Assembly (NCBI GenBank): GCA_017430835.1
Contig: JAFRMD010000088.1
Span: 1-44,569 of the forward strand
Reading direction: 5' to 3'
Origin: Methanosphaera sp.
Lineage (GTDB): Archaea > Methanobacteriota > Methanobacteria > Methanobacteriales > Methanobacteriaceae
Length of the DNA stretch: 44,569 nucleotides
In this document: positions 106-24,692 of the stretch, piece after piece
Layout of the letters: the number at the start of each line of letters is the position of its first letter
How positions within the stretch are numbered: position 1 is the first letter of the stretch
Notes under the pieces: generated by a model
The model's database searches: none
What the model was told of the DNA's origin: nothing
Seen by the model: only the letters and a program-made list of their open reading frames with translations
Position numbers and translations under genes: made by a program

Positions 106-618
106 TCACCTGATATATCTAACAGTTTCTGATGATTTTGCATTAGGATCAACTAATCCAATAAGTCTTGAATCAATTTTATCTTCAAAACCCTCTCCAT
201 ATTTCATAAAGTCTGAAACAGAAGTTTTGGTTTTTGTGAATATTCCTACTTTAACATCATAGCCAAAGTTAAGTGTATCATTTAAAATTTCATCAACTTG
301 TTCTACAAAATCTTCAAGATTGTCTAATTGGACTGTTAAAATTATTTCTCCAACAGATACTCGTAGTGGAACATCATTTCCCTTTACATTAATAGTTTTT
401 CTATCCGTATGATTAACTGGTAATCCTTTTGCAGGACCGAAGTTAACAATAGTCGGTAAAGATTCACCATTAATTAAAACTCTTAAAACACCATCTAAAG
501 CTAATATTTGATTTAATATTTTTTCAGTTGTTGTAGGTTTTAATATTCTGTGAGGGAAAATTTTTACATCGCTTGCTTTAATTACATTAATATCCTGTTC
601 ATCTACTTCTGTTGACAT
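106..618 (-). CDS. mrtD: Methyl-coenzyme M reductase operon protein D
   Basis: This 170-residue protein is of the McrD/MrtD family. It contains the family-like stretch around residues 22-60 (FPHRILKPTTTEKILN, then VLINGESLP). McrD is not part of the mature enzyme. It is encoded inside nearly all mcr and mrt operons and is thought to help assembly or F430 handling, so the role is only partly known. It lies 16 bases after mrtB and its stop codon overlaps the ribosome binding site of mrtG, so it belongs to the same transcript. Length is normal for the family. Confidence 0.9.
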   Translation of the reverse strand: MSTEVDEQDINVIKASDVKIFPHRILKPTTTEKILNQILALDGVLRVLINGESLPTIVNFGPAKGLPVNHTDRKTINVKGNDVPLRVSVGEIILTVQLDNLEDFVEQVDEILNDTLNFGYDVKVGIFTKTKTSVSDFMKYGEGFEDKIDSRLIGLVDPNAKSSETVRYIR

Positions 619-634
619 GATTTAACATCCTAAT

Positions 635-1963
635 TTAGAGTGTATCTTTTATTTGACTAGCTCCTTCAGCAACATATTTTACTGGTTCTCTTAAAAAATC
701 TACGCTACCATATACTTCTCCGACTAAAGCGGAAGTTCTTTCTACGGAGAACATTTGTGTACCTGAATCTAAGGACATAGCTGCTGTATCACATGGAATT
801 GCGTATCCTTTACTGTGTCTTGTTACTACGTGGTTACCGTTGAAAACACCAGGTCCTCCTCCACCGTAAATACCATGTGAGAAGAAACTCATACCTACAC
901 CTACACCCATTACTCTACCAAAGTCTACACCAGGTAAACCTGCTTCGTATTCTAAGATATCATTGAAGTAAAGAATGGAAGATGCAATACCTTGTGCTGC
1001 TCTTGCTGCACCAACGTTAACTATTACAGATGCTACTAAACCTGCTGCTGCATATGCGTTCCATAATGCCCAGTCAACTGGTTCGTATAATTTGTATCCG
1101 GATGGTAATGTTTCTTTTACTCTGATTACTCCATCATCTAATGCTCTAGATAATAATGCTACAACTACATCACCAAGAGTACCTTTACCGTTTTCTTTTA
1201 CTAAATCATAAACTAAGTTGTTTGCGTTTAGTCCTTGGAATGCTAAACCTAATAAGTGGCTTCTTTCGAATGCACCTATTGCATCACCCATTTCAAAACA
1301 AGCTGTTTGTTCTAAAATAGATGATAAAGCTACTGCGTTAAGAGTGTTTTTCTTAGTGATAGCTACTACGTGGTTTGCACCAATGTTTCTTAAACTGTAA
1401 CCTAAACCTTCAAGGTGAGTTGTTTGTCCTAATAAGGTTGTTAAAGCTCCACCTAATTGTACATTGTGTGGGTATCCACCCATAGCTGCACTTTTAATTT
1501 CTGATGCTTGATATTTGTTAATGTCAAAAGTATCAAGAATAGCTTGGATTAATGCTGATCCAGTTGATAATGGTGCAACTGAATAGTCACCAGAAACGCT
1601 TAATCTTTGTGATGGTACTTGAACTAATAATTGTTGTCCACCATTTAATAATTCTAAGTTAAAATCATCGTCTTCACTAACTTTTAACATTTTTGTCATT
1701 TTGTCAGCAATTGCATCAGCGTTATCAACAATGGCTAATTCTAATTCTCTACCAGGAATAAAGTTAGCTTTTCCACCGTATGCTGCGTTTGATAATGATT
1801 TTTCTATTCCTGCAAGGTTTACAGCAACAGAACGCTTAATTTCTTGTATAATATTTTTTATTGTAGGGTTTACTACTGGACTGATTGCTTCTAGAGGTAC
1901 TTGTTCTTCTAAAAGTTTTCCATCTACCCCATATAAATCTATTTTGTCTTCATATGTTGGCAT
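635..1963 (-). CDS. mrtB: Methyl-coenzyme M reductase II beta subunit
   Basis: The 442-residue product is a full-length beta chain. It has the highly conserved glycine-rich active-site region near the C-terminus ([21 protein letters not shown]) and the beta-chain N-terminus ([15 protein letters not shown]). Together with alpha and gamma it forms the F430 enzyme that reduces methyl-CoM with coenzyme B to methane and the heterodisulfide. It is the first gene of the operon and has a GAGGTG ribosome binding site. I call it mrt, not mcr, because the following gene order is D then G with no C. The beta sequence alone does not decide this for me. Confidence 0.92.
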
Positions 1964-9129: not shown

Positions 9130-9138
9130 TTCATCTTC

Positions 9139-9153: not shown

Positions 9154-9262
9154 ATAAAAATAACCTTCAAAAAAATAGATTTTACTAATTTTAAATAAAT
9201 TTTACAAAAAGTAGTATAAAAATAGTATAATAAAATAATAATAAAATTATTTTATTTCCGAA

Positions 9263-9532
9263 TTATCCTGAGATAATTATGAATTCACCGACTTTTTCGA
9301 CTTTACCGAATGGTACTACTAACAAGTCACCATTACGTTTTGCACCTTTAACATTGACACCTCTTTCAGAATCTGTCCTTATAACAATATCGGTGATTTT
9401 TCCTGTTTTTTCATCAATAGTTAATTCTTCTAGATTTCCTAAAATACGTGCATTGTTTGTAGCTACTTGATATCCTCGGATATCAGCCCATAATTTTTCT
9501 TCACCTTTAATTAATTCCCTTTCGTTTGTCAT
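9263..9532 (-). CDS. PRC-barrel domain protein
   Basis: This 89-residue protein is almost entirely one PRC-barrel domain: a short N-terminal lead, then NARILGNLEELTIDEKTGKITDIVIRTD, and the closing LLVVPFGKVEKVGEFIII. Small archaeal PRC-barrel proteins are thought to bind RNA or partner proteins, but their function is mostly unknown. It has its own intergenic spaces on both sides, so it is likely a single-gene unit. The domain call is sound, the role open. Confidence 0.8.
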   Translation of the reverse strand: MTNERELIKGEEKLWADIRGYQVATNNARILGNLEELTIDEKTGKITDIVIRTDSERGVNVKGAKRNGDLLVVPFGKVEKVGEFIIISG

Positions 9533-9616
9533 TCATGCCCACCTAATGATTTTTTACTTAAGTTATTGGTAATAATTATGATATAATTTTTATAATCCAA
9601 ACTATATATAATTTTT

Positions 9617-10222: not shown

Positions 10223-10362
10223 AATAAATCCTCTAATTACTATAATATTTTTTCAATAAAATATTTAAATATTAAAAATTGAAAAAACTTTATATAACTA
10301 ATCAACATAATTTATTATTTGAATTTTATTTGATTAATCAAAAAAAAATAGTAGGAATAAAT

Positions 10363-11241: not shown

Positions 11242-12595
11242 CTTTTTTTTGTTTTTTTATTCTTTGTTGCATGATGCAATATCCATTTTTTGAGCCACCA
11301 ATCGGATTTGTTGGAGTGCCTAGAGAATTCATACATCTAGCCATCATTACTGCACCTAATGCTAAAGCATCATGAACAAACAATATTTTATTAAAATCTT
11401 TTTTTAAGTAATTATTTATCAAAACAGGTTTATTACCCGTTATTCCAGCACGTCCTGTAATTCCTAATGCCATCCCTTCAGAAAGCAAACCCAATCTTTT
11501 TGTTTCATCACAAATCCTTTTAATTGCATATGCACAAATATCATCAATTTGCAATAAAATTTCCTCATCCGACATATTGTTTACAATTGAATTAAATGTT
11601 TTAATTATTTTATTTTCATCATTTATTTTAGAACCTATTATATTCATGCCAGTATCTTCAAAATCGCCTATATACACATATCCCCAATCATGAATATTAT
11701 CCAGCACTTCCATAATATCAACATATTCATGAATTTTAAGAGTATTTTTTTGAATATCCTGTATATTTAATCCATCGGATAATCTATTATTTTCTATGTC
11801 AATTGTGGATTCATTTTGATCTATCATTCCACAACCCCTTAATAAAATATCAGGAAGTCCTCCTGCCAATCCTACAAAGTTACATAAAACTTTTGCATAA
11901 GGTTTTGAATTATCTACAACCTGTCCTGCAAGAGTAGTTCCCATATCAATTGATATTAAAGGATTACGATAATCCACATTTGATTGTTTTGAAGCTAATT
12001 TAATCCCTGCAGTAACAAGCTCACTTTCCATTTCATTAGAGACAATCCCCGTTTTTTCAGGAGAGGTTACACTAACAACAGAACCATCAAATTGAATGCT
12101 GTTAAAAAAAGAGTACTGCCTAATATGATTCGGAATATTGTTTATTGAAAATGGTGCAGTCATTTGATTGGGTTTAATTCCTGCATTTAAACAACCATCA
12201 GATAATGCTTTAATAATTAATCCAATTTCATCAGATAATGAATGTAATGCAACTACTCCTGTAGAACGTACAACAAAGTCCAAATCAGATACTTTTAAGT
12301 TGGCTTGATTCAAACATCCACTGATTATTTCAGAGATTGATTCTTCTATTGATTCTTTGGATAATGGTCTTTCCCATATGGTATGTCCAAAAATAATTTC
12401 TGATTCTTTAGGCAATCTAATTTCTCGGGTTAACTTAACAACTTTATTAATTTGATAATTTTGATTAGTTTTAACATTAGTTGTTAAAATAATGGATTTA
12501 ATGGTAGTATTACCTAATTCAACAGATAATACTGTGTAAAATTGCTTTTCTATTTCTGAAGAAGGTAATTTGGGGAGAATTATTTTTTCAAACAT
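11234..12595 (-). CDS. Methanogenesis marker protein 14
   Basis: The 453-residue protein fits the methanogen-only marker 14 family: SVELGNTTIKSI near the N-terminus, LDFVVRSTGV, then NEMESELVTAGIK and SIDMGTTLAGQV. The two GNTT/GTT elements suggest an ASKHA-type (actin/Hsp70/sugar kinase) nucleotide-binding fold. That part is my inference. The family is confined to methanogens and has no proven biochemical role. It starts 4 bases after mtrH, so it is probably co-transcribed with mtr, which suggests a link with methyltransferase assembly or activation. Confidence 0.85.
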   Translation of the reverse strand: MFEKIILPKLPSSEIEKQFYTVLSVELGNTTIKSIILTTNVKTNQNYQINKVVKLTREIRLPKESEIIFGHTIWERPLSKESIEESISEIISGCLNQANLKVSDLDFVVRSTGVVALHSLSDEIGLIIKALSDGCLNAGIKPNQMTAPFSINNIPNHIRQYSFFNSIQFDGSVVSVTSPEKTGIVSNEMESELVTAGIKLASKQSNVDYRNPLISIDMGTTLAGQVVDNSKPYAKVLCNFVGLAGGLPDILLRGCGMIDQNESTIDIENNRLSDGLNIQDIQKNTLKIHEYVDIMEVLDNIHDWGYVYIGDFEDTGMNIIGSKINDENKIIKTFNSIVNNMSDEEILLQIDDICAYAIKRICDETKRLGLLSEGMALGITGRAGITGNKPVLINNYLKKDFNKILFVHDALALGAVMMARCMNSLGTPTNPIGGSKNGYCIMQQRIKKQKKVN

Positions 12596-12599
12596 GTTA

Positions 12600-13532
12600 T
12601 CATAACAATATATTATATGGATGTTGTTCTACTGGAGATACTCCAATTTCTTCATTTGCTTCAGCAAGGAACATATCTGTCATTGCACATGCAGTAAATA
12701 CCATTTTTGTATTTTCTATCGGACCAAACAATACAAAATCTCCGCCGACCATTTGTTGGACTATATTTGCTCCCACATCACATACTGGCCAAACCTCAGG
12801 ATTTTCTTTTTTATATTGCTTTATCCATTCCCACGCAGAAGGTACATTATGAACTCCACTTCCAGCAGGATAACCCCATTTACTTTTCTCTTTCAAGGTT
12901 GTTTTTATGGCTATTCCTCCACCCTGACCTAAAGGAGTCACAGCAACATCCATTAATGGTTTATATATTCCACAATCCTCTGCTATTTCTAAAAGACCTT
13001 TTTCCAGTATTCCTGAACCATCTTCCCAGATACTTATTTTTCCATCAGAACCTGGCTGAGTAGGATTAAAACCTAAAATGATGGAAGAAGTTATGTCAGA
13101 ATTTGTTAATGCATCAATTTCCTGATTATCAATTGACATGTTAATTGAGTTATAAATAGTTCTTTCAGACAAACCTATTTCTGTAACATGTTTTGCTCCA
13201 GCTATACGGGCATCAGCAGCTGTTGAATCAATTAAAAATGGTGCATCAGTTATTTCACTAACATAATCAATATATTTTATTAATGCTTCAGGTGTTGCTC
13301 CAAATATTTGAATAATTGCAGGATTTTCTGTTTTTTCAGACATTTCATCCATAGTATTTAATAATGACTCCGCTTTCTCCTTATCAAAAATCCCCTTATT
13401 TTCATCTTCTATTATGTTGTGACCTGCATAAAAAATTGTACCTGCTAGTGCAGTAGGATATTCCCCTGGTTGACCTCCGATTTTAACACCATAAATGTCA
13501 AATACTTCTTGCTTTTTTTCAAATTTAAACAT
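12600..13532 (-). CDS. mtrH: Tetrahydromethanopterin S-methyltransferase subunit H
   Basis: At 310 residues this is a full-length MtrH. It begins MFKFEKKQEVFDIYGVKIGG and ends with the TDMFLAEANEEIG region typical of the family. MtrH is the peripheral subunit that moves the methyl group between tetrahydromethanopterin and the corrinoid on MtrA; in a methanol-using methanogen it may also run in the reverse direction. The ribosome binding site AGGGGA is well placed. It is the last mtr gene and is followed after 4 bases by marker 14. Confidence 0.95.
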   Translation of the reverse strand: MFKFEKKQEVFDIYGVKIGGQPGEYPTALAGTIFYAGHNIIEDENKGIFDKEKAESLLNTMDEMSEKTENPAIIQIFGATPEALIKYIDYVSEITDAPFLIDSTAADARIAGAKHVTEIGLSERTIYNSINMSIDNQEIDALTNSDITSSIILGFNPTQPGSDGKISIWEDGSGILEKGLLEIAEDCGIYKPLMDVAVTPLGQGGGIAIKTTLKEKSKWGYPAGSGVHNVPSAWEWIKQYKKENPEVWPVCDVGANIVQQMVGGDFVLFGPIENTKMVFTACAMTDMFLAEANEEIGVSPVEQHPYNILL

Positions 13533-13542
13533 AAAACTTCCC

Positions 13543-13737
13543 CTAAATTATTTTAAATTTTAACATTATAATAATAAAAATTAATGCTATAATTATCCCA
13601 TATAATATTCCAATATCCCTTCCAACAATTTTTCCATATTGTTTAGAATATTCACTATGTGATTCCTCTAATCTTTCCTCTAATTTATCCAATCTTTGAT
13701 TAATAATTTCAAGATCTTCTTTTAAATTATCAGACAT
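13543..13737 (-). CDS. mtrG: Tetrahydromethanopterin S-methyltransferase subunit G
   Basis: The 64-residue protein has a charged, coiled-coil-like N-terminal half (INQRLDKLEERLEESHSEYSKQYGKIVGRDIG) followed by one C-terminal membrane helix. This is the MtrG plan, though shorter than the roughly 80 residues known elsewhere. Its ATG shares one base with the mtrF stop codon. MtrG helps anchor the soluble domains of the sodium-pumping complex. Confidence 0.88.
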   Translation of the reverse strand: MSDNLKEDLEIINQRLDKLEERLEESHSEYSKQYGKIVGRDIGILYGIIIALIFIIIMLKFKII

Positions 13738-13925
13738 TAAAATCCTCCCTTAAAGTATATTATAGGCAACCCAATAATTAATATTGTTATTATAAAACCT
13801 ATAAAAAATCCTGATACTTGAGTATCGGTGACACCAGACAATAATCGCTGATTTCTTCCAAGTAATTGTGTCTTATACTCCACAGATTCCGTTAAATTCC
13901 TAATATTATTCAGTATTCTATCCAT
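13737..13925 (-). CDS. mtrF: Tetrahydromethanopterin S-methyltransferase subunit F
   Basis: I chose the ATG at 13925, which gives 62 residues beginning MDRILNNIRNLTESVEYK. It follows the mtrA stop by one base and has a GGAG site at proper distance. The frame also opens at 13949, inside mtrA, which is less likely. A single C-terminal membrane helix (FFIGFIITILIIGLPIIYF) follows a hydrophilic MtrF-type region. Position between A and G confirms the identity. Confidence 0.85.
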   Translation of the reverse strand: MDRILNNIRNLTESVEYKTQLLGRNQRLLSGVTDTQVSGFFIGFIITILIIGLPIIYFKGGF

Positions 13926-13926
13926 T

Positions 13927-14685
13927 TTAAGCCAATCTCCAATATACAATTAATATAAGAATTAAAGCAAATATAAATCCTATAACAATTCCCTCTATTT
14001 TTCCAGCATAATACCCCGAAGAAAATTTTTCAATACTTGCCATTTCCTTAATTTCTGAATTTAATGAACGAATTCTTGTCTCAATCTCCAATAAATATAT
14101 ACTTGATGAATCAACATTTGAATTAGTAGATATGATCCCTTCTGATTCTTCTTCATCATTATTTTCTTCCTCTGAATCGTTTAATTTGACAATCATCGCA
14201 TCTTCTTCATATGCCCCCGGATCATTAGCAATGCATTCATCAATTTTTGAAGATATTTCATAAATATTCTCATTATTTATCATGCTAACAATAGAAATTT
14301 GCTTTTGAAACCTTTCAACGGCCTCAACGGTTAAGTTTTCAACAAATGGTATTGCACCTGGAGAACCAATGATTGATTTAGTATCCTCATCTATACCATT
14401 TTCATATAATGCTTCAACTGTTTTTCCAGTAATATGTCCTTGAACCTCAGATCCACATATTATCAAGAATCTTAGGTTTGGATTTGAAATAATATTAGCC
14501 ACTACCTTTTCTATACCCAAATTTTCTGTATGTAATGGTCCAGCTATTGCCGCCCCTTTTGAAACAAGTTCTTCATTCATTTTTGAACCTAAAGTAACTA
14601 CTGCTACGGCACACTCAACATCCCCGACACTATAATCCCCAGTTTCTAAAGGCCATCCTTCAATAACTTCTTTTTTTTCTACCAA
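13927..14685 (-). CDS. mtrA: Tetrahydromethanopterin S-methyltransferase subunit A (corrinoid protein), TTG start
   Basis: From the TTG at 14685 the product is 252 residues and starts MVEKKEVIEGWPLETGDY, which matches MtrA N-termini. A GTG nine bases earlier lies inside the ribosome binding site AGGTGATT and is not the start. The corrinoid domain has GPLHTENLGIEKVV and EVQGHITG; the histidine in the former is the family's axial cobalt ligand. An acidic linker (EEENNDEEESEG) leads to a C-terminal membrane helix. MtrA carries the methyl group; its demethylation drives sodium export. Confidence 0.93.
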   Translation of the reverse strand: MVEKKEVIEGWPLETGDYSVGDVECAVAVVTLGSKMNEELVSKGAAIAGPLHTENLGIEKVVANIISNPNLRFLIICGSEVQGHITGKTVEALYENGIDEDTKSIIGSPGAIPFVENLTVEAVERFQKQISIVSMINNENIYEISSKIDECIANDPGAYEEDAMIVKLNDSEEENNDEEESEGIISTNSNVDSSSIYLLEIETRIRSLNSEIKEMASIEKFSSGYYAGKIEGIVIGFIFALILILIVYWRLA

Positions 14686-14700
14686 CGGAATCACCTTATT

Positions 14701-15006
14701 TTATACTAATAAAATTATAAAAATTAATGCTATCATTACTCCAATAACAACATTCCTCAACAAACCTGCAGTGTAATATACTCCTTCACGACCAGGAAAA
14801 GATAATCTTGAAATTGAATGAGAATCAAATGATGATTCAAAATCAGTTATTGCATCATCTAATCGGTCAATTTGAGACATGATTTCATCGGTAGGGAATA
14901 CTGGAATATTTTCAGGTTGCATATTAGAAGCAGAACCAACAATACCTGTTTTTACATCCATTACCAAATCATCATCAATAATAATTTTTGACATTTCATT
15001 TTCCAT
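14701..15006 (-). CDS. mtrB: Tetrahydromethanopterin S-methyltransferase subunit B
   Basis: The 101-residue protein has a hydrophilic N-terminal part (DDDLVMDVKTGIVG) and one C-terminal membrane helix (NVVIGVMIALIFIILLV), as expected for MtrB. A GGAGAG site ending 8 bases upstream supports the start at 15006. The gene lies between mtrC and mtrA in the invariant order of the operon. Confidence 0.9.
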   Translation of the reverse strand: MENEMSKIIIDDDLVMDVKTGIVGSASNMQPENIPVFPTDEIMSQIDRLDDAITDFESSFDSHSISRLSFPGREGVYYTAGLLRNVVIGVMIALIFIILLV

Positions 15007-15008
15007 AA

Positions 15009-15794
15009 CTAATTCTCTCCATCATCATTTGGCCATAAACCATATCTTTTAATTGAAGCAGCTTGATGCTTAGAATAAACAATATATTTCCTGAAAAATA
15101 CAAACCAACCTATAATTGAAATCAACAAGTAAACATACCAATAGGGTCCCATTAACAAAGCAATGATTGATAAAACCACCATCATTAGAAATGCATTAGA
15201 TGCTGATAAAGACAATGTTCTGTACTGGTCTTCATTAGGTCCCATACATGAGTTATAAGGATTCTGTACTGCCATTACCGTACAAATCAACAATAACAAG
15301 ATTAAACCATTTTTAACTACCACATCATATATTACTGTTGGATAGTATGTTTGAGCAAGAAATGCGGACATTGACAATATTACAAACATTGACGAAATAG
15401 AAATGGATATGAATGATTTTGACAAAATTTCCACTTGTATTTTAAATATATGTCGACATACTAAAGAAACAACATATGAGATTACTACTGCAAAGATTAA
15501 GCTAATAATTGGGAAATATGCATATTGATTTAAATAAAATGAAGAAGCCATTCCAGTAAAATAACTTACCACACCAATAGCAGCTAACATATAAACAATA
15601 GACGGAACCCCTGTCCCCAGACTATATTTTCCCACGTGTCGTAAATTGTTTGTACCATATACTGTTGCAAGTACTGTTGAAACAATAGCAAAAATTCCTC
15701 CAACAAAAACAATACTGCTTGCATATAAACAGATTAAACATCCAAGAATTGCTATGATAGTAATTAATTGGTTGGGTATTAAATCATCCGACAT
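15009..15794 (-). CDS. mtrC: Tetrahydromethanopterin S-methyltransferase subunit C
   Basis: A polytopic membrane protein of 261 residues with about seven hydrophobic segments and the conserved loop TNNLRHVGKYSLGTGVPS. MtrC, D and E form the membrane core that couples methyl transfer to sodium transport. The start at 15794 has a GGAGG site eight bases before it and overlaps the end of mtrD by 11 bases. Confidence 0.93.
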   Translation of the reverse strand: MSDDLIPNQLITIIAILGCLICLYASSIVFVGGIFAIVSTVLATVYGTNNLRHVGKYSLGTGVPSIVYMLAAIGVVSYFTGMASSFYLNQYAYFPIISLIFAVVISYVVSLVCRHIFKIQVEILSKSFISISISSMFVILSMSAFLAQTYYPTVIYDVVVKNGLILLLLICTVMAVQNPYNSCMGPNEDQYRTLSLSASNAFLMMVVLSIIALLMGPYWYVYLLISIIGWFVFFRKYIVYSKHQAASIKRYGLWPNDDGEN

Positions 15795-16494
15795 AAATTA
15801 ATCCTCCTATTATAAGAATGTAAACTATTGCAAGCACTATTGAAATTAAAAAACATGAAACTGTTCCCGATACTATTTTTTGTTTAAACTTTTCGTCATA
15901 AAACCCTTGTATTGTACCTCCAATATTATATGAAGCAACCACGGCAATGATGAAAAATAATAAAACTGCCAATATTGCAGATAATGATCCTGTAATAATT
16001 AAATTGTAGGATAGTTTGTTATTTAATATTTTGAATATTGAAGTGAATGCTAAACTTCCACCTATTCCACCTAATAAAGCACCGATTATTCCACTGATAA
16101 ATGATACTGTTGGTATTCCATGACCTGTTGTTCCAGGACTCACATATTCTTCCTGAGAATTGCCAGTGATTAAATCATTTTCAAAATTGGAAGATGCTGG
16201 AGAAACACCTACCCCATATACGTGAATAAGATTTGAGAAAAACATTGTTACAGCAATCATAATCATTGAACCAACAGCACCATAAGAAATCATTATTATT
16301 TCCGGTTGTGAAGTGAAAGAAGCTGCTGACAATATTCCAGTAATTCCCATACCAATTGTTATCATTGGTGCTCCAGTGGGAATTCCTGCAGATGTGGATA
16401 ATGCAGCTGGTGCTCCACCCACTGGTATAAAATGAACACCAATACCAATAAAAGTTGCACCTATTATTATACTAATTAATAGTTCCATAATCAT
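15784..16494 (-). CDS. mtrD: Tetrahydromethanopterin S-methyltransferase subunit D
   Basis: This 236-residue polytopic membrane protein has the conserved glycine-rich stretch FIPVGGAPAALSTSAGIPTG and a second one, GALLGGIGGSLAF, typical of MtrD. The GGGG site is best placed for the ATG at 16494; a second ATG at 16488 is too far. MtrD is part of the sodium-translocating core and is encoded 12 bases after mtrE. Confidence 0.93.
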   Translation of the reverse strand: MIMELLISIIIGATFIGIGVHFIPVGGAPAALSTSAGIPTGAPMITIGMGITGILSAASFTSQPEIIMISYGAVGSMIMIAVTMFFSNLIHVYGVGVSPASSNFENDLITGNSQEEYVSPGTTGHGIPTVSFISGIIGALLGGIGGSLAFTSIFKILNNKLSYNLIITGSLSAILAVLLFFIIAVVASYNIGGTIQGFYDEKFKQKIVSGTVSCFLISIVLAIVYILIIGGLIYVG

Positions 16495-16506
16495 TGCAAT
16501 TCCCCA

Positions 16507-17379
16507 TTATTTTTCATACTTCCCAAATTTTGAACGGGAATTACGTTCAAGAAGCATATTCAGTAAAATGAAAATTAACACTATGAATAAACCAGCAATT
16601 ATTCCATAATTTATTCCGAAAACAAAGTAAATCCAGAAATTAAGGAATATTATAATTCCAAAAGTTAAACCAGTTATTGGTCCACCAAACTTTGAACAGA
16701 AATTAACAACATCCAATGAACTTTGAGAACCTAATGCAGATTTTGTAGCAATATTTCCATTATTTGAAACAGCTATCCCCGCTCCAAACTCATAATTTTG
16801 ATATAATTTTTCGGCACCGTAATGTATATCACCCACAGCAGAACCTATTGATCCTAATGTAACACCCATAAACAAGGTTACAACAGGCAATATTAAGGGT
16901 ACTGCAGGATTTAGTATGTTCACCATCAAATATGATAAAGTTGTGATAGATATGATTGTTATGAAAGCATGAGCTGCTATTGTTGGGAGATGTTTCTGTA
17001 AGACATCCAAAAATATGGGTTGATTATACAATGCTTGACTGGTTATACGACCAATATAAGAAGTGACAGAAAATACAACTTGAACTAGAGTTGCTACTAG
17101 TGAGGATAACAATAGCACTAAAAGTACAGGATAATTTTGTAATAACAGTACATATGCTATTGAACCAGATATTGTGGCAATTGTTCCGACAAATAACGGT
17201 TCCCCAGATACAGCCCGATTAAAAAATTTATGTAAATTACCAATTTGTGGAGCTAATTGAACTTGAGAATTTGGATTACTTGTGGATGCAACATCTGATT
17301 CTAAATCTTCAAAAATTCCTGCAATTATTGCAATTAATCCCATTAAGGTTACAATTGCTAAGTTAAAGATTAAATCCAT
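16507..17379 (-). CDS. mtrE: Tetrahydromethanopterin S-methyltransferase subunit E
   Basis: From the ATG at 17379 the protein is 290 residues and begins MDLIFNLAIVTLMGLIAIIAG, followed by the hallmark EDLESDVASTSNPNSQVQLA. The upstream in-frame ATG at 17400 lies within mcrC and would add an atypical leader. The chosen start has an AGGGG site overlapping the mcrC stop codon, so the two genes are translationally coupled. MtrE has about six membrane segments and is the first mtr gene. Confidence 0.94.
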   Translation of the reverse strand: MDLIFNLAIVTLMGLIAIIAGIFEDLESDVASTSNPNSQVQLAPQIGNLHKFFNRAVSGEPLFVGTIATISGSIAYVLLLQNYPVLLVLLLSSLVATLVQVVFSVTSYIGRITSQALYNQPIFLDVLQKHLPTIAAHAFITIISITTLSYLMVNILNPAVPLILPVVTLFMGVTLGSIGSAVGDIHYGAEKLYQNYEFGAGIAVSNNGNIATKSALGSQSSLDVVNFCSKFGGPITGLTFGIIIFLNFWIYFVFGINYGIIAGLFIVLIFILLNMLLERNSRSKFGKYEK

Positions 17380-17389
17380 ATGATTGCCC

Positions 17390-17992
17390 CTAATATCCAT
17401 ATTTTTGTATCGTATTTTCTACTTTGTCAATTATCTCGTCTAATTTACTTTGAGTACAAGTTTCTCCACGAATTACATCCGTTATCAATTCAACTATTGT
17501 ACCTTTGGTTTCTGGTTTATCCGGCATAACTGCGGATGTTTTTACACCAATCTCTGCAAAGTCTTCAAAATCAACAGGATACTGTGCTATAATAATTACA
17601 GGTTTATTTATATTTTTTAGCACGTGCTTTGCTTTGTATATAATATGATTTTTAACTCCTCCAAAGTGAATTAAAACTACCTTATGACGACTCATTTGAG
17701 AAATTTCTTTCGGAGTTACACCAAATAATCCCTGTCCACCACCAGACGGCGTGTCTTTAGGTACTCCGGAACCAGCATCCAATACCAACGTACTTGTTTG
17801 TATGTTTGCTTCACGTAATGCAAATGTTATCTCACATACTGGTTTTGTAATATGTCTACGTCCCGGAGACATTGCCACTGCCAATAAATCATCGCCACAT
17901 TGTGCATACGTTCCTCTTTGTGCTATTCCTCCACCTTCACCAATTCCTCTTGTTTCCCTACAATCTACAATATGAGTACTTTTACCAATCAT
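17390..17992 (-). CDS. mcrC: Methyl-coenzyme M reductase operon protein C, separated from its operon
   Basis: The 200-residue protein is a clear McrC: it starts [20 protein letters not shown], followed by [31 protein letters not shown], and ends with [16 protein letters not shown]. McrC is not an enzyme subunit; published work places it in the ATP-dependent complex that reduces and activates methyl-CoM reductase, together with marker proteins. Here it heads the mtr operon without mcrB, D, G or A next to it. It presumably serves the mrt enzyme at the left edge of the window. Confidence 0.92.
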
Positions 17993-18129
17993 AAATACAC
18001 TACCTATTAAATTAATTATGTCGAATAATTATTATTAGTTATTTATGTAAACATTATCAGTTATATTTTTTTGTCAATGTGGAGATATGATAGGATACTA
18101 TAAAAAACATGATTAAGAAATAATTAGAT
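17993..18129. promoter_or_regulatory. Divergent promoter region between mcrC-mtr and mmp10
   Basis: 137 bases separate the two divergent transcription units, so promoters for both the mtr operon and mmp10 must lie here. The region is AT-rich with several TATA-like stretches (18025-18040 and 18060-18072), none decisive. GTAGTG before the mcrC ATG is a modest ribosome binding site. Confidence 0.45.
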
Positions 18130-19371
18130 ATGCAGATTATGGCAGATGTTGGTGGAATTCCTGGGAAAAATTGTAGAGGTTTTTGTGAATATTGTTACTT
18201 CAAAAATGTAAAAGAAAGTAAAATATTGGGATGTAAGAATTGTCCTCCAGGACAGATAGGTTGTCCTCACTGTACAACAGATACGAACATGACAAGGGAC
18301 TATTTTCCAGCATACCACGTTTTATCCACATTAAATTCAAACATATTCCAGACTGAAATTCCAAAAGACACAATGGTAAATATAACAGGAGATGGGGATG
18401 TAAGTTGTTATCCCCAATTATTAGAATTAACGCAGGGCATAAATGAAATGGGTTTACCTATTCATTTAGGTTACACAAGTGGAAAGGGCATTGATGATGC
18501 CAGTATTGTTGATAAACTAATTAATAATGGTGTTGTTGAAACCACATACACTACATTTTCAACAGATCCTATTTTAAGGAAAAATTGGATGAACGATCCA
18601 ACACCTGATGCATCAATTGAAGCTTTGAAGACTTTTTGTCAAACATGTGATGTTCATGCCGCATCGATTATAATACCTGGTGTTAATGATGGAGAAGAGT
18701 TAGCACGTACCTGTGAAAACTTAGAATCTTGGGGTGCAAAGGCGTTAATATTAATGAGATTTGCCAATAATAGAAACCAAGGATTAATTCTCAATGGTGA
18801 TCCCATAGTTCCCGGTATTGATGAACAACCAATCGACGAATTTGAACAATTAGTTATTGAAACTTCCAAGGAGTATAATCTGAGAGTTACAGGTACTCCC
18901 GTGTGCGACCCATTAACAGATAGTCCTTATGCTCTATCTAAAGATAAAAATAGAGAATATCTGGAAATTTTAACTCCAATTAAATCAGAAGCCACCCTTA
19001 TTACAAGTAAAATTTCAGCAAAATATATTAGAAAAATTTTAGACAACCTGGATGCATCAGAACATGTTAATGTTATTGAAACAAATCAGGACATTGCTTG
19101 TTTAATTACTGCTGAAGATTTAGAAGAAATAGATTTAGATGAAGTTAAGGATACTGTAATTCTTCCCGGAAGATGTTTTGTTCATGATATGGTTGCTGAG
19201 GAAATATTTAGAAAAGATGGAAAATTCAGATTGATTCATAGAGGGCCAGACACATTAACAGTTGATGGTGAAATGAGTGGAACTTTAACAAAAAATGATG
19301 TTTTAAAACAAGAGTTAATGGCTTTTGAAGATTTAATTGAATTAATAAATTATATGGGCGTTAGATTTTAA
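18130..19371 (+). CDS. mmp10: Mmp10, radical SAM arginine methyltransferase for methyl-CoM reductase
   Basis: The 413-residue protein carries a radical SAM motif CRGFCEYC (CX3CX2C) and the second cysteine cluster special to Mmp10: GCKNCPPGQIGCPHC. Mmp10 is the cobalamin-dependent enzyme shown in other methanogens to make 5-C-methylarginine in the alpha subunit of methyl-CoM reductase. A second ATG at 18139 is possible; neither has a strong ribosome binding site. It is divergent from mcrC and followed by taw2. The target here would be the Mrt alpha chain, outside the window. Confidence 0.9.
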   Translation: MQIMADVGGIPGKNCRGFCEYCYFKNVKESKILGCKNCPPGQIGCPHCTTDTNMTRDYFPAYHVLSTLNSNIFQTEIPKDTMVNITGDGDVSCYPQLLELTQGINEMGLPIHLGYTSGKGIDDASIVDKLINNGVVETTYTTFSTDPILRKNWMNDPTPDASIEALKTFCQTCDVHAASIIIPGVNDGEELARTCENLESWGAKALILMRFANNRNQGLILNGDPIVPGIDEQPIDEFEQLVIETSKEYNLRVTGTPVCDPLTDSPYALSKDKNREYLEILTPIKSEATLITSKISAKYIRKILDNLDASEHVNVIETNQDIACLITAEDLEEIDLDEVKDTVILPGRCFVHDMVAEEIFRKDGKFRLIHRGPDTLTVDGEMSGTLTKNDVLKQELMAFEDLIELINYMGVRF

Positions 19372-19386
19372 TTTAAAGTGATTCTA

Positions 19387-20118
19387 ATGAAAGGCAAATT
19401 AATCGGAGACATATTAGTCGTGAAAAAAGAACCTGAAGATTTAGAAGAACTCATAAAATTACCATATATCAATAGGGTTGTTAAATTAGGTCAAATTCAT
19501 GGACAAAAAAGAGAACCCGATGTTGAAATGATTTATGGGGAAGGAACTGAAACAATTCATAAAGAAAATTATTGTAAATTTAAATTTGATGTTTCAAAAA
19601 TTATGTGGTCCAAGGGCAATACTGGTGAACGATTAAGAATGAGCAAATTACCTGACAAAAATGAGGTAATTATTGACATGTTTGCGGGAATTGGATATTT
19701 CACAATTCCAATGGCAGTACATTCAAAACCTAAAAAAATTTATGCCATTGAAATTAATCCAACTTCCTACAATTATTTATGTGAAAATATTAAGCTAAAC
19801 AAGGTTGAAAATATTGTTGAACCAATACTTGGAGATTGTGGCACACAAGAATTTGACCATGTTGCCGACAGGATAATGATGGGATACATTGGAACTACAC
19901 ATCATTACTTGGATAGTGCTATGAAATACTTAAAACAAGGAGGCATTGTTCATTATCATGAATCAACACCAGAACCAATATTATTTAAAAGACCTGTAGA
20001 AAGAGTTCAGGAAGCTGCAGAAAAAGTTGATAGATCAATTGAAGTTCTCAACAAAAGAACTATAAAAAAATATTCCCCCGGCGTATACCATACTGTAGTT
20101 GACATTAAAGTCAATTAA
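19387..20118 (+). CDS. taw2: tRNA wybutosine-synthesis aminocarboxypropyltransferase Taw2
   Basis: The protein is 243 residues from the ATG at 19387, which follows the ribosome binding site GTGATT; an earlier in-frame GTG at 19378 is part of that site. The SAM-binding motif is VIIDMFAGIGYFTIP, and DRIMMGYIGTTHHYLD with GGIVHYHEST fits Taw2 rather than the methyltransferase Trm5. Taw2 moves an aminocarboxypropyl group from SAM to the tricyclic base next to the anticodon of tRNA-Phe. Its last 8 bases overlap the convergent cofG. Confidence 0.85.
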   Translation: MKGKLIGDILVVKKEPEDLEELIKLPYINRVVKLGQIHGQKREPDVEMIYGEGTETIHKENYCKFKFDVSKIMWSKGNTGERLRMSKLPDKNEVIIDMFAGIGYFTIPMAVHSKPKKIYAIEINPTSYNYLCENIKLNKVENIVEPILGDCGTQEFDHVADRIMMGYIGTTHHYLDSAMKYLKQGGIVHYHESTPEPILFKRPVERVQEAAEKVDRSIEVLNKRTIKKYSPGVYHTVVDIKVN

Positions 20119-21196
20119 TTTCTTTTTTTAATTTAATTGTTTTTTCATATAAGTTTTCATTTAAGAAATTTCTATTAATAAATTTTTCATAAACCGGCAA
20201 TCTTTCTTTAAGATTATAATTTATTTTTTCAATTTCAGATGATAATTCTTGGATTTTAGGCCATTCATCATCCGGATTAACATAATCCTTAGTTATTGGA
20301 GAAATTCCTCCAATATCATCCGCTCCAGCAATGATAAAAAAGGGTATTAAATTCTTGTTTAAATTTGGAGGTATTTGAATACTTACGTCTGGAAACATTA
20401 TTGAAGTTAATACCGTTAGTTTTAATAAGTCAATAACTGATGGTTCAGGATAGTTCGCCATAAGAATATCGGGTTTAGGTTTAAAATTTTGTAATATAAT
20501 TTCCTGTATATGTCCATATTCGTCATGTAATCTGCGTATTTCAAATAGTGAATCAATATGGTCATCCATTGTTTCACCGATACCTATGAGCAATCCCGTA
20601 GTAAAGGGTATTTTTTCTTTTCCCGCATTTTTTATAAACTTTAACCTTTTATCCGGATTTTTTCCAGGACTGTCTTCATGAACTACTGTTTTTAATAGTT
20701 TTTTATTAGTTGTCTCTAACATCAATCCCATAGAAGCATTTACTTGTGATAATAATTTTAATTCATCTCTAGAAATAATTCCCATATTAGTATGAGGTAA
20801 TAAAGCATAATCATTCAAGATATTGTTAGACAAGGAATAAACGTAATCCACCATTGATTCATAACCCCATTTATCCAATATGGCCATAACGTGCTGGTTT
20901 TTATCTGCTGATTCACCAAAAGCGAACAATGCTTCCGTGCAACCCAGTTTTTTTGCTTCATTAACAGAATCATATACTTTTTCTTCATTCATTAGCAAAT
21001 ATTCAGTTTCTTCAGGTAATTCTTTAAAAGTACAATATCCACAATTATTATGACAAATATGAGTTAACGGTAAAAAAACATTTTTTGAATATGTTACTGT
21101 ATTCTTCTTTTGAATGTTTATTTCTTTAATTAAATCTAAAATTGTATCAAAATCAGCACATAATATCTCTTTTGCTTCTTGTTTTGAGATTATCAT
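20111..21196 (-). CDS. cofG: F420 biosynthesis radical SAM enzyme CofG
   Basis: The 361-residue protein has the radical SAM motif CHNNCGYC in the context FLPLTHICHNNCGYCTF, and the CofG stretch GLLIGIGETMDDHIDSLFEIRRLHDEYGHIQEIILQNF is cut here only for length. CofG with CofH makes the deazaflavin FO, the core of coenzyme F420. I chose the ATG at 21196 (MIISKQEAKEIL). The frame opens slightly earlier at 21205. It follows the small methanogen protein after about 30 bases. Confidence 0.9.
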   Translation of the reverse strand: MIISKQEAKEILCADFDTILDLIKEINIQKKNTVTYSKNVFLPLTHICHNNCGYCTFKELPEETEYLLMNEEKVYDSVNEAKKLGCTEALFAFGESADKNQHVMAILDKWGYESMVDYVYSLSNNILNDYALLPHTNMGIISRDELKLLSQVNASMGLMLETTNKKLLKTVVHEDSPGKNPDKRLKFIKNAGKEKIPFTTGLLIGIGETMDDHIDSLFEIRRLHDEYGHIQEIILQNFKPKPDILMANYPEPSVIDLLKLTVLTSIMFPDVSIQIPPNLNKNLIPFFIIAGADDIGGISPITKDYVNPDDEWPKIQELSSEIEKINYNLKERLPVYEKFINRNFLNENLYEKTIKLKKEIN

Positions 21197-21228
21197 AACT
21201 ACCACAAAAAATAGTAAAAGTAATTTTT

Positions 21229-21687
21229 TTACTCTTCATCTATAATGTTAACAACCATAGCCTCAACAAACATTGGTCCAAAACCTGATCTATCCATCCA
21301 TACTACAACATAAACTGCAATATTCCCTATTTGACCCATAATATATTCTGCATCAAAACCAGTTATTTCAAAAGTATGCTTAAGTTTTTCTATCCCATCT
21401 ATTCCATTTGACTCATCATATACTTCTTCTGTTCTTCTAAATGTTGAATCAACTTTTTCAGTTAATTTACGAGATTTTTCTGAACCCACTTCTACTTTTT
21501 GAATTCCCAAATATTCAAATAATTCTTTTAGTTTAGGTTGCATATCTTCCTTTTTAAGTTTAGATGCGGATTTATTCCTAATTACCATTGCATCAGGATT
21601 ATGTACAACAGGTTTTGATCCCTGAAAAGCATCCATATATTCCATTATTTTTCTAGAAATTTCTATTACTTCCATGTTATCATCCAT
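21229..21687 (-). CDS. Conserved methanogen protein of unknown function (possibly DUF2120)
   Basis: The 152-residue soluble protein has no catalytic motif that I recognise. It shows the pattern MEYMDAFQGSKPVVH near the N-terminus, a charged middle, and a hydrophobic C-terminal half (IGNIAVYVVVWMDRSGFGPMFVEAMVVNI). From memory it resembles the family DUF2120, but I could not check this. Its start overlaps the end of mptA by 8 bases and cofG follows, so it may be tied to pterin or deazaflavin cofactor synthesis. Confidence 0.6.
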   Translation of the reverse strand: MDDNMEVIEISRKIMEYMDAFQGSKPVVHNPDAMVIRNKSASKLKKEDMQPKLKELFEYLGIQKVEVGSEKSRKLTEKVDSTFRRTEEVYDESNGIDGIEKLKHTFEITGFDAEYIMGQIGNIAVYVVVWMDRSGFGPMFVEAMVVNIIDEE

Positions 21688-22624
21688 TTTTAAATTCTTT
21701 TCTTAATTCACCAAATGATGTATTTTTTTCTGCATACGCATTATGTTGGTGTATACTTTCTTCATTTATTTGTTTAATAGTAACTAAAGAATTATCTGGC
21801 AAATCAGGATATTTCTCAAGCAAACCCAAAACCATATTTCGCACACAGTCCTCAACAAATACTGGGTTTTGATGAGCCTGAGTAACTACTCTGTTTTCAT
21901 CAGGTCTTTTAAGTATTTCACATACTGGAGAGCTCATTGAATTTTGAATAATGTAAATTAAATCATCCACATTAATTTCTTGGTTTTCTGGTACTTCTAA
22001 TAATATTGAACCAATACCTCTCTGATTGTGAGAAGCAAATGTTACTGCATCCAATACCTTATTTGTTGTTTCTTCATCCAAGAATTCCAATAGTTTAACT
22101 TTTGATTCTTTTTCAACAGATTCCTGAGCACATGGACAGACTGTCATTCCAACAACTTCTGCTCCAATCAGTTTTCTTACTGAAATTTTGCCTGTTTGGT
22201 CTTTTAAAGCTATTGCCCTTGATATTATTTGTGTGGTTTCCTGAGTTTTTTTATTTGTTACTGGAGAATATTTATTTATTATGTATTCACTTTTAACTTC
22301 TGTTTCTGCACGTATTGCATATTCATGTTTTTTTAATAATTTTTTTACTAAATTAGCACATATGTCCTCAAGATGTATTTCTTTTTCATTAGCGGATTCA
22401 GCAATTATTTCAGATATTGCTTCCGGATTTCTTGACATGTGCACTCCCTTTTGAGTGCTTGGTAAATCTACAAAAGCATTGAATGTTGGTAATAATATTA
22501 TTGGTCGCTTATTTCCCCGTTCTATTTTTAATAATTTTTTCACGCCGGTTACTCCGACACGTGTTAATGATATTGGAGTTTGGGGTTGTTTGTCTTGAGT
22601 ATCTGGAAATTCCATATTCGGCAT
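21680..22624 (-). CDS. mptA: GTP cyclohydrolase MptA (methanopterin synthesis)
   Basis: The 314-residue protein begins with the family signature FPDTQDKQPQTPISLTRVGV and contains the metal-binding CPCAQ motif in VGMTVCPCAQESVEKES. MptA is the iron-dependent archaeal GTP cyclohydrolase of the FolE2 superfamily. It makes the cyclic phosphate precursor of tetrahydromethanopterin, the carrier that Mtr uses. A good ribosome binding site (AAGGAGA) precedes the ATG. Confidence 0.93.
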   Translation of the reverse strand: MPNMEFPDTQDKQPQTPISLTRVGVTGVKKLLKIERGNKRPIILLPTFNAFVDLPSTQKGVHMSRNPEAISEIIAESANEKEIHLEDICANLVKKLLKKHEYAIRAETEVKSEYIINKYSPVTNKKTQETTQIISRAIALKDQTGKISVRKLIGAEVVGMTVCPCAQESVEKESKVKLLEFLDEETTNKVLDAVTFASHNQRGIGSILLEVPENQEINVDDLIYIIQNSMSSPVCEILKRPDENRVVTQAHQNPVFVEDCVRNMVLGLLEKYPDLPDNSLVTIKQINEESIHQHNAYAEKNTSFGELRKEFKNG

Positions 22625-22655
22625 AATAAAAAGTCTCCTTAAAATTTACTATTAA

Positions 22656-22670
22656 ACAATATATAAAATT
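22656..22670 (-). promoter_or_regulatory. Likely TATA box of the mptA operon
   Basis: On the minus strand the sequence reads TTTTATATATTG, about 35-45 bases upstream of the mptA ATG. It would place the start point near 22635, in front of the AAGGAGA site. Confidence 0.45.
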
Positions 22671-22750
22671 TTAGATAATTATATTATATGATTAAGAATA
22701 TTTAAAATAGCTTTGTTCAAAATAACGATTTATATTTTGAAACATTAACT

Positions 22751-22864
22751 CCTATAAATAAGTTCCCCTATTTCTTTCAAAATGATCCGCTTCACTCAAA
22801 AGTGTAGTAGAAGGATAATAGAGGAGAATTTTCTATGTTTGATAATATTTATAATATTTATTAA
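22751..22864 (+). other. Possible small transcription unit with a nine-codon ORF
   Basis: Within the 419-base gap between two minus-strand genes, the plus strand shows a TATA box (CTATAAATAAG, 22752-22762), a GAGGAGAA ribosome binding site (22821-22828) and an ATG at 22835 opening a nine-codon frame (MFDNIYNIY, stop at 22864). A short CACT/AGTG inverted repeat lies between them. It could be a leader peptide remnant, a small RNA, or chance. The rest of the gap shows nothing I recognise. Confidence 0.25.
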
Positions 22865-23043
22865 AGAATAAAGAAAAATCATTTATTTACAAGGATTGTT
22901 TAATTTTCAGATTGAATATTTATTAGTTTATGTTTAATATAATTGCTTTAATAAAGTGAAGTCTAAAAAGTATCTAAAAATTTAATAAAGATAAATGAGA
23001 ATAATTTTAATAAGAAAAAAAGGTTTAAAATAGGATTTATTAC

Positions 23044-23553
23044 TTATTCATCAAAATTAATCATTGATGAATTTAATTCTTCTTTAACAATGTTTAATAC
23101 TGTTTGAGTATAAGTTCTAGTAACAATTTCTTCGTTTAATAATAATTTAATAAATTTATTTAATTCAAAAGTATTTTTAAATTTAGCAATTATTATACCG
23201 TCAAATTGACCTGTTACATCATATACTGCTAATAAATTGTTTTTAAATGGTTCTTTATCCGTTAAATGTGCTACTGTCCCACCTTTAATTTCAAGACCAA
23301 TAATTGCAGTAAGTGTATATCCTAATTTTTCATGATCTATTACAGGTACGAATTTATTTATAATTCCAGATTTTGTTAATTTATCTACCCTATTATGAAT
23401 AGTACCAACTGAAACACCTAATTCACGTGAAATCTTCCTGTAAGATTTCCTTCCATCAACACTTAATAATTCTAAAATTTTTTTATCTAGTGCATCCATT
23501 GATAATTCTATATTTTCTGATTCTGAGTTATAATTATTGGTTATTTGATTCAT
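23044..23553 (-). CDS. Lrp/AsnC-family transcriptional regulator
   Basis: The 169-residue protein has an N-terminal winged helix-turn-helix (LDKKILELLSVDGRKSYRKISRELGVSVGTIHNRV cut to its key helix: KISRELGVSVGTIHNRV) and a C-terminal ligand-binding RAM domain ending near GQFDGIIIAKFKNTFELNKF. Such archaeal regulators usually sense amino acids or related metabolites and act as activators or repressors. The first 20 residues form an extra, poorly conserved tail. A perfect 23-base palindrome 35 bases upstream suggests that it regulates itself. The target genes are unknown. Confidence 0.88.
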   Translation of the reverse strand: MNQITNNYNSESENIELSMDALDKKILELLSVDGRKSYRKISRELGVSVGTIHNRVDKLTKSGIINKFVPVIDHEKLGYTLTAIIGLEIKGGTVAHLTDKEPFKNNLLAVYDVTGQFDGIIIAKFKNTFELNKFIKLLLNEEIVTRTYTQTVLNIVKEELNSSMINFDE

Positions 23554-23587
23554 AAAATCCCTACTTTTAAAAAATCATTTTTATAAC

Positions 23588-23610
23588 AATATATCAAATT
23601 TTGATATATT
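23588..23610 (-). promoter_or_regulatory. Perfect palindrome upstream of the Lrp-type regulator
   Basis: AATATATCAAA (23588-23598) and its complement TTTGATATATT (23600-23610) flank one central base, giving 11 paired positions. It lies 35 bases before the regulator's start codon and contains TATA-like sequence, so a bound protein would cover the promoter. This is the classic form of an autoregulatory site for Lrp-type proteins. Confidence 0.6.
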
Positions 23611-23999
23611 TCTTTAATTGTAATATAAAATATTTATTATCCTAATAATATATAAACCTTTTCTAAATAGTTAATGAAATAAAAAAAATATTGAAGTTTT
23701 TTAATTTTTCAATAAAAAGTTATGATAATTATTATAATAATAATAATTAATATTCTATAAATTACCATTTCATTAAAATAAAAATAAGTAAATAGTCCAT
23801 TTAGACATTTATCAAATTGGATTTTAAACATCTTTAAAAAAAAAATAAACAAAAATATCATAACAACTTTTTCATATAGCCCTAAACTTAGCCAATATTT
23901 AATACCAAAAAAAGTTAAAAAAATATTATATCTAAACACAAACAAACATAATACTATAATAGAAATATTAAAAAACTCTCAAAACAATGGTGAACATAT
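23611..23999. other. AT-rich intergenic region without a supported gene
   Basis: The stretch between the regulator and the next gene holds many A/T runs (for example an ATT/AAT repeat near 23722-23752). A 78-codon minus-strand frame here (23709-23945) codes for a low-complexity Ile/Phe-rich peptide without a ribosome binding site, so I reject it. The promoter of the gene at 24000 should lie near 23950-23970. Confidence 0.5.
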
Positions 24000-24692
24000 A
24001 TGAAATGGTATGTAATTTTTATAGTTGTTATATTTTTACTAATCGGCTTTCTTTATGTTTCAACATCAGCAACGTCAAATGATGTGGAACCATTAGGTAG
24101 ACTAGCATTTGTAAAAATTGCAAACCCTGATATGTATCCAGGACACGTACATGCTAATTTACTTGCACAATATGCTGAAGAAAGAGGATCAAAATGTGCA
24201 ATAGTAATACACTTTGCAGGAAGTTCAAACTATAGAAACTTCATGAATGGAAATGTGTATATAATTGAAATGGCATTTATGGATACTGCAGGAGCTCAAG
24301 TAGACATTGATTGGAATCAAGTTTTAGACTATGGATTAAATGGAGTTCCAGATAATAAATGGAATTACAAAGTTGATGGTGAAATATATGATAATTTCGA
24401 AGATGCATGGGCTAGAGTATTAGAAATGGCTAAAAGCGCAGGACAAGAAGGTCCAATACCTATGGTATGGCATGGAACAGTACGTGAAGGAAATATTTTC
24501 ATAAATCCTGGATGTGGATTCCCATTATATTACCAAGTATGTTGCAAAGAATTTGGCCATTTAAGCGGAATAATGCATGCTGCATCAGGATCAATATTCC
24601 CTTACTTTAACAATCCATATAGATCATACGAAATACAACATGCATCCGAATTACAATATTATTACACACACAACATGCTAAATTATGAGTAG
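24000..24692 (+). CDS. Exported or membrane-anchored protein of unknown function
   Basis: I do not recognise this 230-residue protein. Residues 3-24 form one hydrophobic helix (WYVIFIVVIFLLIGFLYVST), either a signal peptide or an anchor, followed by an outside domain. The domain holds several histidines and four cysteines, including GCGFPLYYQVCCKEFGHLSG, and an aromatic C-terminus (ELQYYYTHNMLNYE). This could bind metal or form disulfides, but no known catalytic motif is clear. GGTGAAC is a good ribosome binding site. It is a single-gene unit with its own hairpin terminator, between a regulator and trm1. Confidence 0.75.
   Translation: MKWYVIFIVVIFLLIGFLYVSTSATSNDVEPLGRLAFVKIANPDMYPGHVHANLLAQYAEERGSKCAIVIHFAGSSNYRNFMNGNVYIIEMAFMDTAGAQVDIDWNQVLDYGLNGVPDNKWNYKVDGEIYDNFEDAWARVLEMAKSAGQEGPIPMVWHGTVREGNIFINPGCGFPLYYQVCCKEFGHLSGIMHAASGSIFPYFNNPYRSYEIQHASELQYYYTHNMLNYE

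Follow-up and report, generated by a model that had tools for sequence, protein, structure and literature searches.

A lone mcrC gene in front of the mtr genes of Methanosphaera, probably kept in place after the loss of MCR isoenzyme I

The DNA analysed in this work (hereafter the window, i.e., the whole 44,569-nucleotide stretch of Methanosphaera sp. contig JAFRMD010000088.1) carries an mcrC gene standing alone directly before mtrE. We consider it very probable that MCR isoenzyme I was lost before the Methanosphaera group diversified and that McrC was kept in place, serving the Mrt enzyme in trans and now probably heading the mtr operon. The loss, the position of mcrC and the fact that this state is shared are shown by the comparison across all genomes examined, and service to Mrt appears to be the likeliest reason for the retention. 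The genes and sites around the junction are:

18130..19371, plus strand: mmp10, MCR-arginine methyltransferase (TIGR03278, 642.3 bits, cut-off 350; synteny)
17998..18005, minus strand: Shine-Dalgarno-like sequence AGGTAGTG of mcrC (from the sequence; similar in the upstream/junction alignment of relatives)
17390..17992, minus strand: mcrC, Fe-S subunit of the MCR activation complex, kept alone (TIGR03264; PDB 8s7v_I)
17387..17391, minus strand: Shine-Dalgarno sequence AGGGG of mtrE (from the sequence; overlaps the mcrC stop codon)
16507..17379, minus strand: mtrE (TIGR01113, 337.3 bits; likely start 17379 by junction comparison, 17400 in the ORF list)
15784..16494, minus strand: mtrD (TIGR01112, 239.4 bits)
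15009..15794, minus strand: mtrC (TIGR01148, 189.6 bits)
14701..15006, minus strand: mtrB (TIGR04166, 86.1 bits)
13927..14694, minus strand: mtrA (TIGR01111, 294.4 bits)
13737..13925, minus strand: mtrF, small ORF of 62 aa (PF09472, 68.1 bits)
13543..13737, minus strand: mtrG, small ORF of 64 aa (PF04210, 64.7 bits; TIGR01149, 63.4 bits)
12600..13532, minus strand: mtrH (TIGR01114, 487.9 bits)

The 200-aa product of mcrC scored 336.3 bits in the profile search with the curated equivalog TIGR03264 (cut-off 213.5), and its single PDB match at an E-value of 0.001 or lower was 8s7v_I (E 4.5e-73), the chain formed by McrC in the MCR activation complex from M. maripaludis. The gathering score of Pfam MCR_C (PF04609) was missed (21.5 bits against 25), which we do not hold to be defining for the identity of the protein, since both the TIGR03264 score and the match to a solved McrC are strong. 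The coordinates given for mcrC in an earlier note, made by a model from the letters of the window, are correct, and the overlap with the mtrE ribosome binding site that it described is present as well: the stop codon TAG (17390-17392) forms part of the mtrE Shine-Dalgarno sequence TAGGGG. The start of mtrE is likely better set at 17379, the alternative ATG at 17400 falling within mcrC.

Downstream of mcrC the mtr cluster of the window is complete (mtrEDCBAFGH), with mtrE as its first gene. An MtrF match inside MtrA had suggested an MtrA-MtrF fusion, which was dismissed, mtrF being a separate ORF. Directly after mtrH there is a methanogenesis marker 14 gene (11234-12595), and the same order is found in those Methanosphaera-group loci that reach that far. 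On the other side, mmp10 is divergent from mcrC at a distance of 137 bases. Six tRNA genes are clustered at 39623-40262 on the minus strand.

A scan of species genomes for McrC relatives returned 346 stretches, the best 80 of which were kept; these comprise 12 loci of the Methanosphaera group (L001-L012), 51 of other Methanobacteriaceae (L013-L062 and L080), 5 of Methanococci and 12 of Thermoplasmatota. Among these best 80 of 346, mcrB lies upstream of mcrC in all 51 other Methanobacteriaceae loci and in 5/5 Methanococci loci, mtrE adjoins mcrC in none of the 51, and mcrB and mcrC are not neighbours in any of the 12 loci of Thermoplasmatota. Where the loci of other Methanobacteriaceae and of Methanococci include mtrE, it starts at least about 2.5 kb downstream of mcrC, and in the closely inspected ones (L013, L132-L135) the gap is occupied by mcrG and mcrA. 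This agrees with the view, put forward in the earlier note, that in related methanogens the full mcrBDCGA operon stands before mtrE. An mmp10-like gene is found upstream in 37 of the 51 Methanobacteriaceae loci (divergent in 30) and in all five Methanococci ones. In a locus from a horse-faeces archaeon, two tandem mtrH-like matches end the mtr cluster (L018:13437-15778), and two MAGs, RGIG7892 (L023 and L043) and RGIG4352 (L050 and L055), have two McrC loci each and are probably mixed bins.

In the Methanosphaera group, mcrC is followed directly by mtrE in 12/12 loci and in six more genomes of the genus (L162-L167). The junction is thus the same in 18/18 relatives, and its origin by chance is not at issue, even if L003/L162 and L007/L163 are near-identical pairs and the 18 loci are therefore not all independent. 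The mtrE ORF starts -32 to 19 bases from the mcrC stop in 18 of the 19 cases (the window and the 18 loci) and 116 bases from it in L166. The upstream neighbour is also shared: mmp10 precedes mcrC in the window and in 17/18 group loci (in 16 of them at 119-846 bases, in L166 beyond a 2.2 kb insert), the exception being L009, with other genes and no mmp10 at this place.

No remnants of mcrB, mcrD, mcrG or mcrA were detected around mcrC by tblastn (E up to 1) in the 18 group loci and positions 9001-24000 of the window, and nowhere in the window or these loci is mcrC surrounded by mcrBDGA, i.e., by the operon of isoenzyme I. The search gave McrD hits in L008 and L009 only (E 0.47 and 0.69), some 3 kb away from mcrC, and these two were taken as chance. 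The 2.2 kb interval between mmp10 and mcrC in L166 is approximately of the size of mcrBD; it was ruled out as a remnant, since it contains a gene for a D12-type adenine DNA methyltransferase as well as an ORF for an EcoRV-like endonuclease (L166:9120-10628). The loss of mcrBDGA proposed in the earlier note is borne out by comparison, with the four genes absent, mcrC unmoved and this state shared in all genomes examined. Breakpoints cannot be reconstructed, and this, like the lack of B, D, G and A remnants, would also fit a scenario in which the mcr operon was lost whole and mcrC moved to mtrE afterwards. We regard such a move as highly improbable, as the genes flanking mcrC, mmp10 before it and mtrE after it, also flank the intact cluster of the relatives.

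The search was extended over a genus set of 20 Methanosphaera genomes other than that of the window, mostly drafts that lack completeness values and have some masked stretches. One full McrC over the cut-off was present in 18 of the 20 and two in no genome; the remaining genomes, G013 and G016, have no MtrE either, and for this reason we read their lack of McrC as a region missing from the drafts. McrA was matched in 18/20 genomes (over the cut-off in 13), with no match in G013 and G003 and two full copies in none; two partial matches were listed in each of G005, G009 and G010, and in G005 and G010 they cover different parts of the protein. In four genomes mcrC and mrtA share one contig, of 1.68 Mb (G014), 1.77 Mb (G020), 2.51 Mb (G018) and 2.87 Mb (G017), and neither a second full McrC nor two full McrA were found in these four. 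It is extremely unlikely that the gene at 17390-17992 is a second copy, with a full mcr operon and its own mcrC elsewhere in the genome: the window's own genome is outside the 20 searched, which leaves room for such an arrangement, yet no genome of the set, including the four with contigs of 1.68-2.87 Mb, contains two full McrC or two full McrA proteins.

Across the family, a scan of 138 genomes, many of them poor drafts (38 give no McrA match at all), found full McrC in 94 genomes at 96 places. In the genus, none of the 18 places is linked to mcrA. Elsewhere in the family there are 78, and at 71 of these a same-strand mcrA follows mcrC at a distance of no more than 2 kb. No mcrA adjoins the other seven: five are within 0.7 kb of the start of a contig, on the side expected to hold mcrA, and two (G071 and G078) match L061 and L043 by coordinates, their contigs ending 0.4-0.6 kb past mcrC. 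The junction of mcrC with mtrE was accordingly not encountered in genomes keeping mcr, the only places not upstream of mcrA being these seven near contig ends. Six genomes with a Mrt-like full McrA and no McrC (G021, G051, G054, G096, G101 and G103) were read as draft gaps, five of them also having no MtrE; a real loss of McrC in G101 was dismissed, as MtrE and a short end of mcrA sit at a contig start there.

The enzyme that remains in Methanosphaera is isoenzyme II, i.e., Mrt. Two of its genes are visible at the left edge of the window:

635..1963, minus strand: mrtB, beta subunit of MCR isoenzyme II (TIGR03257, 670.7 bits; PDB 5a8r; tree)
106..618, minus strand: mrtD (TIGR03260, 213.4 bits)

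In the PDB comparison, this beta subunit reached 692.7 bits with the MCR II structure 5a8r versus 584.5 bits with the best MCR I structure. A tree built from 39 beta subunits (quick method, SH-aLRT) placed seven sequences of the group and five from mrt operons of other genomes in one clade (support 100) and 23 McrB sequences from operons of the family in another; four methanococcal ones fell between them under midpoint rooting. The earlier note had described a C-less mrt operon at this edge. The edge location holds for mrtD and mrtB, which are all that the window itself shows, and mrtG and mrtA are expected beyond it; the absence of mcrC is seen in the relatives, the gene order being mrtB-D-G-A without C in L170-L174, among them four relatives with long contigs (L170-L173). 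An mrtBDGA operon (MCR II) without mcrC, like that of the remaining enzyme of the group, is also known from 12 genomes of the family in which both isoenzymes (as told apart by bit score) have a full alpha subunit. There it occurs beside a full isoenzyme I alpha subunit, whereas in Methanosphaera it is alone; a single full McrC was counted in 11 of these 12 genomes and none in the twelfth. The use of MCR II by Methanosphaera is stated in the available part of PMC10658910.

Further evidence comes from McrC itself. In a tree of 49 McrC sequences (quick method, with a warning on long branches among the outgroups), 16 sequences of the group clustered in a single clade (97), to which the family's other 25 sequences are adjacent, and no sign of a horizontal origin of the Methanosphaera gene was seen in this tree. 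This clade and the shared junction, rather than breakpoints, are what suggests a single loss event; the number and order of the deletions are likewise inferred. The accessible portion of PMC12176620 gives C12, C55, H49 and H118 as the McrC ligands of two Fe-S clusters (FeSI and FeSII). The corresponding C11, C53, H47 and H116 (window numbering) are present in 19/19 group sequences and in 66/66 other McrC proteins (85/85 aligned; there were 67 other loci, one of them without a closed ORF). R175, in approximate numbering, corresponds to the arginine which, as far as that partly available account shows, pairs with a glutamate of McrA in the structure, and its glutamate partner is present in 7/7 aligned MrtA sequences of the group.

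The median pN/pS of McrC within the group is 0.104 (91 pairs), against values between 0.157 (MtrH) and 0.413 (MtrC) in seven neighbouring genes (78 or 91 pairs). In 15 operon-keeping relatives the value for McrC is 0.205, again the slowest of these genes; the slow evolution thus shows selection, yet it is not special to the Methanosphaera group. Given this purifying selection along the protein and the full conservation of the ligands, it is exceedingly improbable that McrC is a passive leftover, kept for the mtrE Shine-Dalgarno sequence at its 3' end and for a promoter driving mtr. Such a role would account for the mcrC stop lying inside that Shine-Dalgarno sequence in the window and for a gap too short to leave room for a separate mtr promoter, but it would need only the last few codons to be kept.

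The close spacing of mcrC and mtrE in 17/18 relatives, together with 11 positions which set McrC of the group apart from that of other Methanobacteriaceae, might point instead to a functional link with mtr, McrC having acquired a new role within or next to the Mtr complex and no longer activating MCR. We find this very unlikely. All four cluster ligands are kept in 19/19 sequences, the partners of MCR activation are retained in the genus, McrC evolves far more slowly than MtrE, MtrD, MtrC or MtrA, and G019 and G012 keep an intact McrC while their MtrE is eroded and MtrD was not found; the 11 positions could be explained as drift. The activation partners named in PMC12176620, in so far as its text is available, include Mmp3, A2, Mmp17 and DUF2098. 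Mmp3 is present in 20/20 genomes of the genus, A2 exceeds its cut-off in 18/20, and Mmp17 occurs in 19/20, its sole miss (G020) falling at a masked stretch next to mmp3, from which no conclusion on a real absence was drawn. DUF2098 was found in 19/20 genomes, and for Mmp7 there is a weak match to the McrC model only (19.7-32.3 bits, 20/20).

The erosion of the Mtr membrane arm can be followed in L166:5101-7904 (G019) and L168:7461-8931 (G012), where MtrE is shorter and 27-29% identical to that of the window, and MtrD has no match in either genome. In G019, MtrC is 29% identical and there is no room for mtrF between mtrA and mtrG, with MtrA and MtrH kept; the contig of G012 ends within mtrC.

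Pull-downs in M. maripaludis, as reported in the available part of PMC9584954, indicate that McrC acts in trans. Because the ligands are conserved, the partners are retained, the protein is under strong purifying selection, one McrC stands beside both isoenzymes in other genomes and action in trans is known, service to Mrt would be the likeliest reason for which McrC was retained.

The spacing of the genes and a conserved upstream motif suggest that mcrC is probably the first gene of the mtr operon, with a predicted promoter of its own. In the window the motif is located as follows:

18061..18071, minus strand: candidate BRE/TATA motif AAAAAATATAA of the mcrC-mtr unit (conserved upstream motif)

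The pattern AAA(0-2 bases)ATATAA occurs 71-94 bases before the mcrC start in 14/19 upstream regions and is missing in five; in 500 mononucleotide shuffles, which ignore kinship, the mean count was 3.1 and the maximum 8. The gap between mcrC and mtrE is too short for a separate mtr promoter.

The operon-keeping relatives have a different arrangement at this place: in most loci a conserved and apparently structured leader RNA precedes mcrB. It runs from GTATAC as far as the start codon, a length of about 120-150 bases, and mostly ends with AGGAGG(G/A)AAAAAATG. The pattern was matched in 41 of the 50 loci L013-L062 (eight did not match and one was cut short). Its outer helix is GTATAC/GTATA(C or T), the outer repeat being part of the selection pattern, and in 41/41 leaders the energy of the free fold equals that obtained with this helix imposed. 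Against dinucleotide shuffles, the folding z-score averages -3.4 (weakest -0.7), and many of the folds, not all, contain a three-way junction. An alignment of 14 leaders has four pairs of the third helix changed on both sides, with 2-4 of the 14 cells broken at each; a looser first alignment of 24 leaders of differing length (A1) yielded no consensus pair, and the leader model R1 derived from it was set aside as sequence-only. No Rfam 15 family reached the gathering score in the nine leader loci searched, and no published account of an mcr leader RNA was found in the literature searched. In the window and the searched group loci the pattern does not occur before mcrC or mrtB, though five matches lie elsewhere.

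The course of events that we favour would thus be the following. In the lineage leading to Methanosphaera, mcrB, mcrD, mcrG and mcrA would have been lost from both sides of mcrC, and the upstream mcr leader region along with them, mcrC staying between mmp10 and mtrE. The gene would have been kept because its product carries two Fe-S clusters of the complex that activates MCR and can act in trans; with MCR I gone, this product would serve the sole enzyme left, Mrt, whose operon has no mcrC, and mcrC would have come to head the mtr operon with its own promoter. A deletion of isoenzyme I with selection keeping McrC, as the earlier note proposed, is supported by the junction in 18/18 relatives, the pN/pS of 0.104 and the ligands in 19/19 sequences. 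It is tempting to go further and to suppose that mcrC, freed from the leader-RNA operon and joined to mtr, now makes the activation of MCR II answer a different signal, and that McrC, with its 11 group-specific positions, has specialised to MCR II; this remains a tentative and rather doubtful extension. The mtr genes also seem an odd match as the new partners of mcrC, since Mtr is off the main methane route in Methanosphaera according to the consulted part of PMC9635834.

The closest known counterpart is the mcrBDCGA-mtr cluster of Methanobacteriales (e.g., Methanothermobacter, PMC3087415, in its available part), in which mcrC occupies the same slot and mtr lies directly downstream of the cluster; in many relatives mmp10 lies upstream, as in the window. 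The window differs in having no mcrB, mcrD, mcrG and mcrA and no mcrB leader, so that mcrC abuts mtrE. In ANME-1 and ANME-2d (PMC9081873, available part) and in the Thermoplasmatota methanogens (12 loci), mcrC also lies apart from the structural genes and must therefore act in trans, as here. In these archaea, unlike in Methanosphaera, mcrC does not stand at the head of mtr as what is left of a lost second isoenzyme; Methanomassiliicoccales are without Mtr (PMC4153887).

The loss of isoenzyme I in Methanosphaera has already been published (PMC6120340 and the available part of PMC10658910), as has the trans action of McrC in M. maripaludis, and the fresh part of this work is that mcrC was retained and unmoved. 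The accessible text of PMC6120340 describes three Methanosphaera genomes as having no mcrABCG and only mrtABDG; its "C" is contradicted by the genomes examined here. The part of PMC1852104 at hand names McrC among methanogen proteins with no footnote on its absence in M. stadtmanae, and its presence in that species is therefore implicit in print. No prior account of the mcrC-mtrE junction was found in the literature searched, and the M. stadtmanae genome paper of Fricke et al. (2006) may mention it.

These data exemplify how a gut methanogen, Methanosphaera, lost one of two methane-forming enzymes and kept the helper gene mcrC in its old chromosomal place. A 2022 review (PMC9081873), as far as its available part goes, leaves undecided whether McrC is needed by MCR II or is borrowed from the operon of MCR I. 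Methanosphaera, with MCR II as its only enzyme and McrC as its only copy, is a natural case apt for the question of whether MCR II needs McrC.
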